Shown in pieces: positions 21,332-25,430 of a stretch of 64,000 nt of DNA. A program made the position numbers and the translations under genes. The stretch comes from Hypomyces perniciosus (taxonomy: Eukaryota > Ascomycota > Sordariomycetes > Hypocreales > Hypocreaceae). The stretch's first letter is position 1, and every line of letters starts with the position of its first letter. The notes under the pieces are model-generated. The model had not been told where the DNA came from and did no database searches. It was given only the letters and a program-made list of their open reading frames with translations. Location of the stretch: positions 2,046,001 through 2,110,000 of the forward strand of contig SPDT01000004.1 in the NCBI GenBank assembly GCA_008477525.1, read 5' to 3'.

Positions 21332-22362
21332 GGCTACAGGGGAGGTGTCTGCAGTACGAGCACTCCGTGTAATAAGCTGGTACCTGTCTGTACATTCAAT
21401 ACCACTACTTTGTAGTGTAATCGGATTCTTTAATTCAGACAGAAATTAGGGAGAAAAAAAAGGGAATTGGCAATTAGGTTTCAACCTAGGATGACAAGAA
21501 GAGGGAAAAAAAAATCAAGTGTGACAATCCGATGGCGGACAAAGCGCTTTTATTCCACCCCCCCAGTCATGATGGTTTTTACGATGTAGAATTGAGTATC
21601 TCTGAGAGTCCCTGAAATTGGCAACTTTAGGCTGTCTGCCTGGCCCATCCTGTCTTGGGGCGGCGGGTGCTGGAAACTACAGGGCAGATTTCAGCACTAA
21701 AAGAAAAACATCCGCATTCAGTGCCCTCTCAGCCTCTGTCTCTCAGCCATTGGGGAGGGGATTCGGTTGAGTGATGGACGGATCCTCCGGACGGCCGGTG
21801 TGGAGCCTTGTTTCGCTGGGTTGACTGAACATGATGCTCTGTTCTTGACAGATGAACATATATACACAACAACTACTAATAGGTAGCTATCGATCTATTC
21901 ACTGTTATGGACAAGAGAAACTAGACTTGATCCGTCCTTTCACAAGTCAGTCAATGAGTAGTACCTGTACGGAGTCTCTCCGCTAAATCCTCGGCGCTTG
22001 TATCGCTGTACTTATCGAGTCCGTCCGTACTCGTATCACACGTCATGGCCCGTTCGTTACATTAGCGAACCCCTCGTGACTCTGACTGATCTCTCCCTCA
22101 CGGTCCCCTCTTCAACCTCTTCAACCAACCGCCATCTTACTTGGAGTCTCTCTTTTGACGACACGACACCAAGGCTTCAACCATTTTTGTAGCCCTTGCG
22201 TCCAATCCCGCCACAGCGACCTATCGCCACTGTGAGTGACGTCGTCGAATATTATCGGAGCGACCCTTGAAGACTTGACAATCCCGACAGGAACCCCCCC
22301 CCCCCCCCACCTCCACCTCCACCTCCACCTCCAATAACTGCCGACCCCATCCAACCGCGAAA
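21332..22362. other. Divergent promoter region, with C-tract and CCACCT repeat in UBC8 leader
   Basis: No gene is supported between the two divergent genes. A run of 15 C lies at 22294-22308, followed by CCACCT-type repeats to about 22332, immediately before the UBC8 start. Both probably lie in the UBC8 5' leader. Confidence 0.6.
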
Positions 22363-23449
22363 ATGAGTAGCCCACGCCGTCGAATCGAGACTGATGTGAG
22401 TCCTATCAATGTCGAGATTTGCCTTCTGTGTCGAGGCTGACCTATTGTTTTTTTCTTCTCTCTAGGTCATGAAGTATGCTGTTCTTCTGGAATGCATTGG
22501 CGAGATGGTCTGACTAACATGTTTACAGGATGTACGATGACGCTCGCCTCCAACACCCGCCCACGGCGCATGACTGACACCATCCAGGCTCATGAGCGAC
22601 TACGAGGTGACGCTCGTCAACGACAACAGTAAGTGCTGGCTATCATTCACACTAAAAAGCGGCACGGTCCTGACTCGCGGCAGTGTAAGCGTTTGCATGA
22701 ACCCGCGTCGTCCCCTGCAACCCTTTGAATCCACGTCCTTACCGACCGAAACAAAACAGGCAGGAATTCTTCGTCCGATTTAAGGGTCCGGCCGAGAGTG
22801 AGTTTGCGCTGTGCAATCCGGAGGATCTGTGTTGCTGACGGGGTGGGCGTGACCACATAGCTCCATTCGAGGGAGGTCTCTGGAAAGTCCACGTCGAGTT
22901 GCCGGATACCTACCCGTACAAGTCGCCCAGCATCGGTTTCGTGAACCGCATCTTCCATCCCAACATTGACGAGCTGTGAGTCTGGAATCATTCGTGGTTG
23001 TGGGAAAGGAGAAGGCGGGGAAAAAAGTACTGAGACGAGGCTTTGGATAGGTCCGGTTCCGTGTGCCTGGACGTCATCAACCAGACTTGGTCGCCCATGT
23101 TCGACATGATCAACATTTTCGAGGTCTTCCTGCCACAACTCCTCCGATACCCGAACCCGACCGATCCTCTGAACGGAGAGGCAGCTGCCTTGTTTATTCG
23201 GGAACCCAAGAGCTACGATGCCAAGGTCAAAGGTGGGAATGACGAAAGCAACCTCGGGATATCAAAATAGCGACGCGGTTTCTTTCATACTAACCCCTTT
23301 TTGATGCAGAATATGTTCAGAAATACGCCAACAAGGACGCCGCGGATGAGGCTGGTGCGGAGAGCGATGACGAGGACGACATGTCCTCGGTGGCGAGTTT
23401 CGACGAAGAGGAGGAGGAGGAACCCGCCGGCCAGATGGACGATGTATAA
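22363..23449 (+). CDS. UBC8: Ubiquitin-conjugating enzyme E2, Ubc8/UBE2H type, with micro-exons
   Basis: Ubc8 is the E2 that works with the GID/CTLH ligase, for example in turnover of gluconeogenic enzymes. The inferred exons are 22363-22395, 22466-22473 (8 nt), 22529-22531 (3 nt), 22588-22628, 22684 (1 nt), 22760-22797, 22861-22975, 23051-23232 and 23310-23449. They sum to 561 nt, 186 residues plus stop. The 8-nt exon is GTCATGAA; the 3-nt exon GAT completes Lys-Met; the single T completes the Met before QEFFVRF. Omitting the T shifts the frame; omitting GAT deletes one residue the family keeps. The UBC core has [20 protein letters not shown], the active Cys at 85 in [12 protein letters not shown], and the acidic tail ending GQMDDV typical of Ubc8. 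Confidence 0.9.
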
Positions 23450-23992: not shown

Positions 23993-25102
23993 TCAATCAG
24001 AATCGTAATGCACCAGTCCACTCAAGGCACTTGACTCCTGCGCAGGCACCTTGGCAGGCGAACCGGTTTGATTGCTCCCATCACCCGCAGAGGATGACGA
24101 TACACCAACGTCTGCAGCAGCGCGTTTCCGCTTTACGCCGAGAAGCAGTCTATTGGAAGACTTGGGCTCCGAGCTGCGCGCGTTTTGAAGGAGGAAAGGG
24201 TCGTGAGATGCCCTCGTGTTGGCCAGGAGCTCCGAGACGAGACTTTCTTTCCTCTTGGACGCTTCCTTTTCGGATTTATTGAGCTTGGTGGTTGACGACA
24301 GCTTTGGAGTTGGCGTCTGGTTTTGTGAGGTTGCGAATAGAGGCTTGGAGAGGGCCTTGTCGTGCGAGGAGGAGGAGGGGGGGAAGTCATCTTGAAGCCC
24401 GAAATCCACGAGAGAAGCCCTCTTCGCATCGGCTTCCGTCTCCGGGAGGATATCGATGCCCAGGCTCATCCGGTCCTTGAGGTCCTCCGTCGCAGCAGCC
24501 AAACGCTCCCTGTCTTTCCTCCCCGCCCGAAACGCCCTGCGCAGCTTCTGATTCTGCGCGTAGGGATCATCCCAATGCCGGGCCGACACGTCCATGAGAT
24601 CATGGATCCTTTCCGTTGCTTGTTTCAAATGCTCCCTGTCCTCAATCGTCTTCTCCAGACTCGCAAACGCGTTTTTCCTCAAAGCCTCCCGCTCCTGGTC
24701 CGTCATGATGACTGTATCGCCCTCCCTGGGCTTATCCTCACCCGTATCCCTTTTCGTCGCGCCAGAAACAACCACATATGCCGTATTCTTAGGATCGGTG
24801 CGCATCTCAATGGCACCCCCGCACTCGGCGTGCTTAAACCGAAAACTCCATATCGGCGAGGTGTAGTAACTGCCCGCGCGCTTCTTCTCCGCGTTGAAGC
24901 GCACGCCCTGGCCGATGACCGTGGGCTTCGGGCACGAGGAGCACCATATCGGGAAGGGCATTTCGAAGCGCACCGTGAGGATGCCGTGGGAGGCGAGCTT
25001 GGAGGCGCGATGGCCGAGGGCGTGTTTTTTATGCAGTTTGTTCCCGGACGTGGTGCCTTCGAGGTCCGGGGGCACGTAGCGGCCCATGTTGAAGCCCTGC
25101 AT
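23993..25102 (-). CDS. SAF4: CWC16-family splicing factor, Saf4/CCDC130-like
   Basis: CWC16 proteins (Yju2, CCDC94, CCDC130) associate with the spliceosome; the Saf4/CCDC130 branch is named for splicing-associated factor 4. One uninterrupted exon encodes 369 residues beginning MQGFNMGRYVPPDLEGTTSG. The conserved N-domain runs to about residue 120, with HKKHALGHRASKLASHGILT, the zinc-site pair in IWCSSCPKPTVIGQG, and a second region FKHAECGGAIEMRTDP. A coiled, basic middle and a low-complexity Ser/Lys C-terminus end in GLVHYDSD, a tail I also recall in CCDC130-type proteins. The MQGFNMGRY start favours Saf4/CCDC130 over Yju2, which begins differently. It lies tail-to-tail with UBC8. Confidence 0.88.
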   Translation of the reverse strand: MQGFNMGRYVPPDLEGTTSGNKLHKKHALGHRASKLASHGILTVRFEMPFPIWCSSCPKPTVIGQGVRFNAEKKRAGSYYTSPIWSFRFKHAECGGAIEMRTDPKNTAYVVVSGATKRDTGEDKPREGDTVIMTDQEREALRKNAFASLEKTIEDREHLKQATERIHDLMDVSARHWDDPYAQNQKLRRAFRAGRKDRERLAAATEDLKDRMSLGIDILPETEADAKRASLVDFGLQDDFPPSSSSHDKALSKPLFATSQNQTPTPKLSSTTKLNKSEKEASKRKESLVSELLANTRASHDPFLLQNARSSEPKSSNRLLLGVKRKRAAADVGVSSSSAGDGSNQTGSPAKVPAQESSALSGLVHYDSD

Positions 25103-25430
25103 GATGGGCGATTTTGCGGAATCGTCGTTTTCGTTTGGGGGGAGGGGGGGAGGGGGGGGCGGTTGTGGAGGATATGAAGATGAAGAATGGTGGAGTGGAA
25201 TTTGAAGTTCGGAGGACCGAGTACGTCACTTCAGAGCTAACCCTAACCCTAACCCTGGATATGGATGTGGATGTGGATGTGGATGGCGGGGTGCTGAGAC
25301 TCCATGTTAATTGCATCTGGCTTCCCAGACATACGACATGCTTGATCTTCAATACTCCCTCGTGATTGATCATGATAGGGCTAATGAAGCCTGGTATGAA
25401 CCCCTGAAAAACGAACCTCAGGAGATGTGG
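25103..25430. repeat. Telomere-like CCCTAA repeats and ATGTGG repeats in the splicing-factor promoter
   Basis: At 25237-25256 there are just over three copies of the telomeric unit (CTAACC CTAACC CTAACC CT). They are followed at 25257-25284 by ATGTGG-type hexamers. The block lies about 140 bp upstream of the splicing-factor start. It may be an interstitial telomeric tract or a telo-box-like promoter element. No gene is seen here. Confidence 0.65.

Follow-up and report, generated by a model that had tools for sequence, protein, structure and literature searches.

Can a single nucleotide serve as an exon in a fungal nuclear gene? This question is raised by a UBC8/UBE2H-type gene at positions 22363–23449 on the forward strand of the window, the 64-kb stretch of DNA analyzed here, which is a piece of one contig (C16) of a 44-Mb genome in 23 contigs. 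When its nine exons are joined, the gene encodes a 186-aa ubiquitin-conjugating enzyme (E2) of the family that works with the GID/CTLH ligase. The identification as UBC8 made in the preliminary description was borne out: the product has a UQ_con domain (PF00179, 133.3 bits against a cut-off of 27), its closest solved relatives are Ubc8 and UBE2H, with which it is colinear, and SVCLDV is kept. Among solved structures, 8pmq_E (deposited as E2-24 kDa, which we take to be yeast Ubc8) ranked first with 241 bits, followed by UBE2H structures 8pjn (232) and 2z5d (227), and then by 2onu (207) and 1yf9 (186), the next structure reaching 99 bits. The protein built with the micro-exons aligned gap-free with 8pmq_E over residues 1–178, in agreement with the earlier statement that yeast Ubc8 has residues at both of the places where the smallest exons contribute; human UBE2H is one residue shorter just before the Met position, and the stretch around GAT is gap-free with the human protein. 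The closest relatives among the best 120 of 5,655 matches were mostly Hypocreales (Beauveria, Trichoderma, Claviceps, and Fusarium). The predicted structure of homologue P0004 (and 18 other rows) was poor, with a mean pLDDT of 47.1, and was not used. UBC8 is single-copy in this genome: a search with its protein gave 15 matches, of which three were exons of this gene (82–97% identity) and the remaining 12 were other loci (31–46% identity).

The preliminary description had read micro-exons of 8, 3, and 1 nt separated by GT-AG introns of 70, 55, 56, 55, and 75 bp, and every coordinate and length was correct (see the table). Its remark that several introns contain CTAAC or CTGAC also held, with CTRAC boxes in six of the eight introns and branch-like CTNAY boxes in seven. 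The box of intron 5 is CTTAC, intron 7 has none, and the A of the box in intron 4 lies 10 nt before the intron end.

Exons and introns of the UBC8 gene, in window coordinates
Feature	Position	Strand	Remarks
Exon 1	22363..22395	+	33 nt; alignment with 8pmq_E starts at residue 1
Intron 1	22396..22465	+	70 nt; GTGAGT..TAG; CTGAC box
8-nt micro-exon GTCATGAA	22466..22473	+	Splice-path scoring; traces in relatives' models
Intron 2	22474..22528	+	55 nt; GTATGC..CAG; CTGAC/CTAAC
3-nt micro-exon GAT	22529..22531	+	Finishes Lys14, starts Met15
Intron 3	22532..22587	+	56 nt; GTACGA..CAG; CTGAC 10 nt before end
41-nt exon	22588..22628	+	Last base of Met15, 13 residues, first base of Met29
Intron 4	22629..22683	+	55 nt; GTAAGT..CAG; CTGAC at 22670-22674
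Candidate 1-nt exon T	22684..22684	+	Middle base of Met29 ATG
Intron 5	22685..22759	+	75 nt; GTAAGC..CAG; CTTACCGAC at 22738-22746
Exon 6	22760..22797	+	Last base of Met29, 12 residues
Exon 7	22861..22975	+	Frame reconstruction
Exon 8	23051..23232	+	Holds SVCLDV; aligned with VCLDV of human UBE2H 2z5d
Exon 9	23310..23449	+	Ends with stop codon

The base T22684 stands alone between a complete AG and a complete GT, with workable introns on both sides, and joining it to the flanking exons (AACA/T/GCAG) produces the Met29 codon. As previously claimed, this base makes the Met and restores the frame: when it is omitted and donor 22628 is spliced directly to 22760, the frame shifts and a stop follows 40 codons further on. 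T22684 is needed for the frame with donor 22628; a donor 4 nt downstream (+4) keeps the frame too. Omission of GAT leaves the frame open and gives VMK-LMSDYE with one residue fewer, which upholds the statement that GAT adds one residue at this place. Keeping the later exons unchanged, we then enumerated all GT-AG chains with introns of 45–140 nt between the ATG and 22797 and obtained 5,382 open paths encoding 4,671 distinct proteins. These were scored against a profile of 26 of the 41 non-NCBI proteins described below, all of which have the Met, so that the ranking is a test of homology and no independent proof; the path with the 8-, 3-, and 1-nt exons ranked first with 401.8 bits. The second path used a different 1-nt exon, C22690 (398.4 bits), the top path without any 1-nt exon was the +4 donor form (392.8 bits), and the top path in which every exon is at least 9 nt scored 379.8 bits.

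The 131-nt gap between the flanking exons (22629–22759) contains one CAG/T/GTAAGC. When this gap was resampled 20,000 times with a first-order Markov model, any YAG/N/GTRNG with both introns of at least 40 nt appeared in 0.34% of the sequences, the same with N = T in 0.12%, and T followed by GTRAG in 0.03%. The double-intron composite occurred a single time in the 64-kb window, both strands counted, and a stringent pattern combining intron 4, N, and GTAAG, written post hoc, occurred once in the 44-Mb genome, against 0 for the reversed-pattern control. RNA folding of 22588–22797 gave nothing unusual (z of 0.74), and structural masking is not claimed.

The junctions were compared in 223 relatives, a non-random sample collected by three protein searches (the best 120 of 5,655 matches, all 29, and the best 120 of 5,214) with overlaps merged; the sequences are kin, and the counts below do not represent independent events. 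The sample comprised 41 non-NCBI proteins and 182 NCBI models, or 180 fungal NCBI models without plant P0001 and P0103. The non-NCBI contigs are probably cDNA because the complete frame runs unbroken on contigs of mostly 0.9–2 kb. The T junction was intact in 38 of these 41 proteins and the GAT junction in 37; the exceptions were P0121, P0123, and P0125, which read introns, plus P0021, which begins with MKMLMS and is an exception for GAT alone. A clean loss of one residue was found in 0 of the 41. Among the 182 NCBI models, the T junction was intact in 16, the GAT junction in 47, and both in 9, where "not intact" means that a text pattern was unmatched and 61 of the 182 models lacked an anchor (36 classed as without QEF, 25 as none). 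For the fungal NCBI models, the corresponding figures were 14 of 180 for T and 8 of 180 for both junctions. In the readable NCBI models, the breakage was located at the micro-exons. The Saitoella protein P0109 was intact at the junction and is uninformative on its exon structure. Across 19 aligned homologues, all picked as intact, the Met29 position hardly varied.

By translating introns, the wrong gene models expose the underlying DNA, which makes them informative; the junction DNA of the relatives discussed here was deduced by back-translating such protein models. Among inserts between NDN and QEF that start with S and are at least 28 aa long, 11 of 13 allow AG/T/GTRNG at 47–58 nt from the donor, a fit that shuffled inserts reach at 0.4–7% each; a 14th insert (P0126) was mis-parsed and left out. 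The fitting inserts came from Fusarium flagelliforme (two), F. coffeatum, F. pseudograminearum (two), F. culmorum, two metagenome ORFs, Clonostachys rosea, a Hypoxylon sp., and Aspergillus niger, and P0062 and P0124 showed no fit to AG/T/GTR. In a scan for AG/T/GT over all inserts of at least 5 aa, the short ones were uninformative, as they do not span both introns. Fusarium read-through models also have L-T-D (CTNACNGAY) shortly before QEF, in the equivalent of intron 5. A separate group of 26 models reads NDN-M without QEF next. Of these, 21 continue with Y, which in 19 is followed by a codon starting with G, equivalent to T/GTAYG; two continue with F (T/GTTY), and three, NDN-M-H/P/S in P0037, P0177, and P0202, do not fit. 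The 19 models fall in four classes (looked up for five species): Sordariomycetes (Beauveria, Fusarium), Eurotiomycetes (Aspergillus, Penicillium, Paecilomyces), Dothideomycetes (Hortaea), and Coniocybomycetes (Sclerophora). The other two Y models, from Ophidiomyces and Lasallia (Lecanoromycetes), read MYM, equivalent to T/GTAY without G at +5. Thus judged from back-translated read-through models, the 1-nt exon appears to be conserved.

Similar traces were found at the other micro-exons. Among 35 models broken at VMK, 16 read VMK-MY[A/D/V], equivalent to GAT/GTAYG, and 13 NCBI models read ETD-DV[R/C], which together with the VMK-MY set fits GAT/GTNYG. At the 8-nt exon, 12 of the 35 read VMK-[YC], equivalent to AAG TAY/TGY, running into GTAY or GTGY, and the metagenome ORF P0125 reads IGHEVC, which corresponds to ATHGGNCAYGARGTNTGY. 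Past the junction, the intact contig P0114 (2.5 kb) shows no difference from A. niger P0145, whose model reads through CAG/T/GTATGCA, or from A. carbonarius P0149, which also reads through the sites; this pairing holds at the genus level only because P0114 is equally identical to A. fumigatus P0152, A. fumigatiaffinis P0180, and A. tubingensis P0135. Four models (P0034, P0045, P0072, and P0116, from Monilinia, Dothistroma, Baudoinia, and Ascochyta, respectively) read NDN-R-QEF, which neither the T nor the +4 donor yields. The traces in the gene models suggest that filamentous ascomycetes widely share the UBC8 micro-exons and that most of the listed models miss them, and the micro-exons look Pezizomycotina-wide.

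In Morchella P0207 (NDN-SKLPT..) and Tuber P0221 (NDN-SE-QEF), the T junction is broken, and P0221 also lacks the GAT residue (VMR-LMSDYE). Both genera presumably belong to the Pezizomycetes, and their breakage hints that these micro-exons were already there when Pezizomycotina arose.

The preliminary description had allowed that other junctions might keep the frame, and a concrete one does exist (GTAA/GTGCTG): the 41-nt exon would extend by 4 nt to 22632 and be spliced from a GTGCTG donor to 22760, giving NDN-SK-QEFF without a 1-nt exon. This form is in frame, leads the paths that lack a 1-nt exon, and is matched exactly (NDN-SK-QEF) by 11 of the 182 NCBI models; however, it is found in 0 of the 41 non-NCBI proteins, its product is one residue longer than 8pmq_E, its intron would be 127 nt, and its donor has no G at +5, whereas the overlapping GTAAGT matches the consensus. 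Every GTAAGT donor has a built-in GT at +5, where gene finders may therefore go astray. With both the homologues and the splice-site quality against it, we regard the downstream donor as improbable here. C22690 (AAG/C/GTTTGC), 6 nt past T22684, would likewise restore the frame and ranked second in the scoring, but it places Thr where Met is nearly invariant in the homologues picked as intact, and both its splice sites, the acceptor AAG and the donor GTTTGC, seem to fit the consensus less well, so its use is scarcely credible.

A base might also be missing near 22628 through an assembly error, or the gene might be decaying, with the apparent T exon a coincidence. Against this, 166 of the 180 fungal NCBI models are not intact at the same junction by the text pattern, models of other species show AG/T/GT at the same place, and the rest of the UBC8 frame is unbroken, which makes this account very improbable. 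Finally, T22684 could be skipped and the loss compensated during translation; programmed frameshifting is reported for PaYIP3 of Podospora (PMC3777964). The nucleotide-derived non-NCBI proteins have the Met within one frame, however, and we give such compensation next to no weight.

The best explanation, to which we assign a probability of approximately 0.9, is a working single-copy UBC8 gene whose mRNA contains the 8-, 3-, and 1-nt micro-exons, with T22684 a genuine exon, introns 4 and 5 removed stepwise, and an old arrangement shared across Pezizomycotina. Both the inclusion of the micro-exons in this species' mRNA and the age of the arrangement are what we infer from the sequences compared. 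T22684 would supply the middle base of Met29 and so restore the frame. With a distance of 1 nt between their splice sites, introns 4 and 5 probably cannot both undergo spliceosome assembly simultaneously; most likely they are removed successively, each being recognized across the intron (intron definition). Removal of intron 4 first may be favored because ligation of A to T would turn AGT/GTAAGC into CAT/GTAAGC, a better fit to U1. For the 1-nt exon of APC11, Guo and Liu considered simultaneous splicing of the flanking introns very unlikely and proposed intron definition with recursive splicing (PMC4674806), and by analogy the same logic would apply to UBC8. The order suggested for UBC8 is opposite to the precedent that they cite, a 9-nt exon of potato in which the second intron leaves first (PMC4674806). 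A more far-reaching idea, which we consider doubtful, is that the 8/3/1 run is ancestral to Pezizomycotina and the oldest and most widespread fungal 1-nt exon, and that skipping of T acts as a switch that sets the E2 level: mRNA without T would be frameshifted and probably degraded, and the efficiency of stepwise splicing could tune the amount of E2.

Exons of 1 nt are an established kind, known from APC11 (PMC4674806) and VPS55 (PMC8831610) of land plants and from CYP621A of Fusarium, which was detected with RNA reads and called the first fungal case (PMC12940212, 2026), and UBC8 is an added member. The earlier statement on rarity was thus right that APC11 had been described, but APC11 is not the sole case. 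Like UBC8, CYP621A is a nuclear gene of filamentous ascomycetes in which the middle base of a conserved codon lies in AG/N/GT, found via frame and homology; its double intron is 139 nt in F. graminearum versus 131 nt in UBC8. The CYP621A base is G, in a P450 gene supported by RNA reads and described there from Fusarium species only, whereas in UBC8 the predicted exon is T, in an E2 gene with two neighboring micro-exons and traces in several classes. The UBC8 exon apparently occurs in more fungal classes than that of CYP621A. The APC11 and VPS55 exons are likewise 1 nt, widely conserved, and overlooked by annotation, and, like UBC8, APC11 is a gene of the ubiquitin system; they differ in being in plants and in other genes, with the APC11 exon lying within a 422-nt interval.

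Ascomycete stwintrons (spliceosomal twin introns) consist of two U2 introns removed successively by intron definition (PMC12403724). In these, a splice element of the outer intron is interrupted by the internal one and no base should be left behind, whereas UBC8 would retain one coding base. Introns 4 and 5 were rejected as a stwintron, since all their splice sites are complete and excision without a remaining base causes a frameshift. Recursive-splicing ratchet points have juxtaposed sites in long introns (PMC8605326); they resemble UBC8 in that acceptor and donor nearly touch and stepwise removal is expected, but UBC8 would retain 1 nt and its introns are 55 and 75 nt. As one base separates AG from GT, the T site was also rejected as a zero-nucleotide ratchet point. 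The Xlr2 micro-exon of Trichoderma is, like those of UBC8, from a filamentous fungus, but it is 20 nt long and its inclusion is conditional on carbon source (PMC11121469). A single-nucleotide exon has also been described in a mitochondrial gene, placozoan cox1 (PMC5436844), and two fungal mitogenome papers (PMC12308204, PMC8208691) use the term. No report of the UBC8 micro-exons was found in the literature searched, mostly at the level of titles and abstracts; within that literature, UBC8 would bring the number of fungal nuclear genes with a 1-nt exon to two. Because Aspergillus and Penicillium orthologues have the same traces, the handling of 1-nt exons could be tested in laboratory fungi. 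The micro-exons also offer a reason for the wrong UBC8 models in most of the listed fungal genomes, a warning for annotation pipelines.

Just 5′ of the UBC8 ATG, at 22294–22332, a run of 15 C is followed by repeated ACCTCC-like units. The tail-to-tail neighbor of UBC8, at 23993–25225 on the reverse strand, encodes a Saf4/Yju2 protein (PF04502, 244.8 bits), presumably a member of a splicing-factor family.
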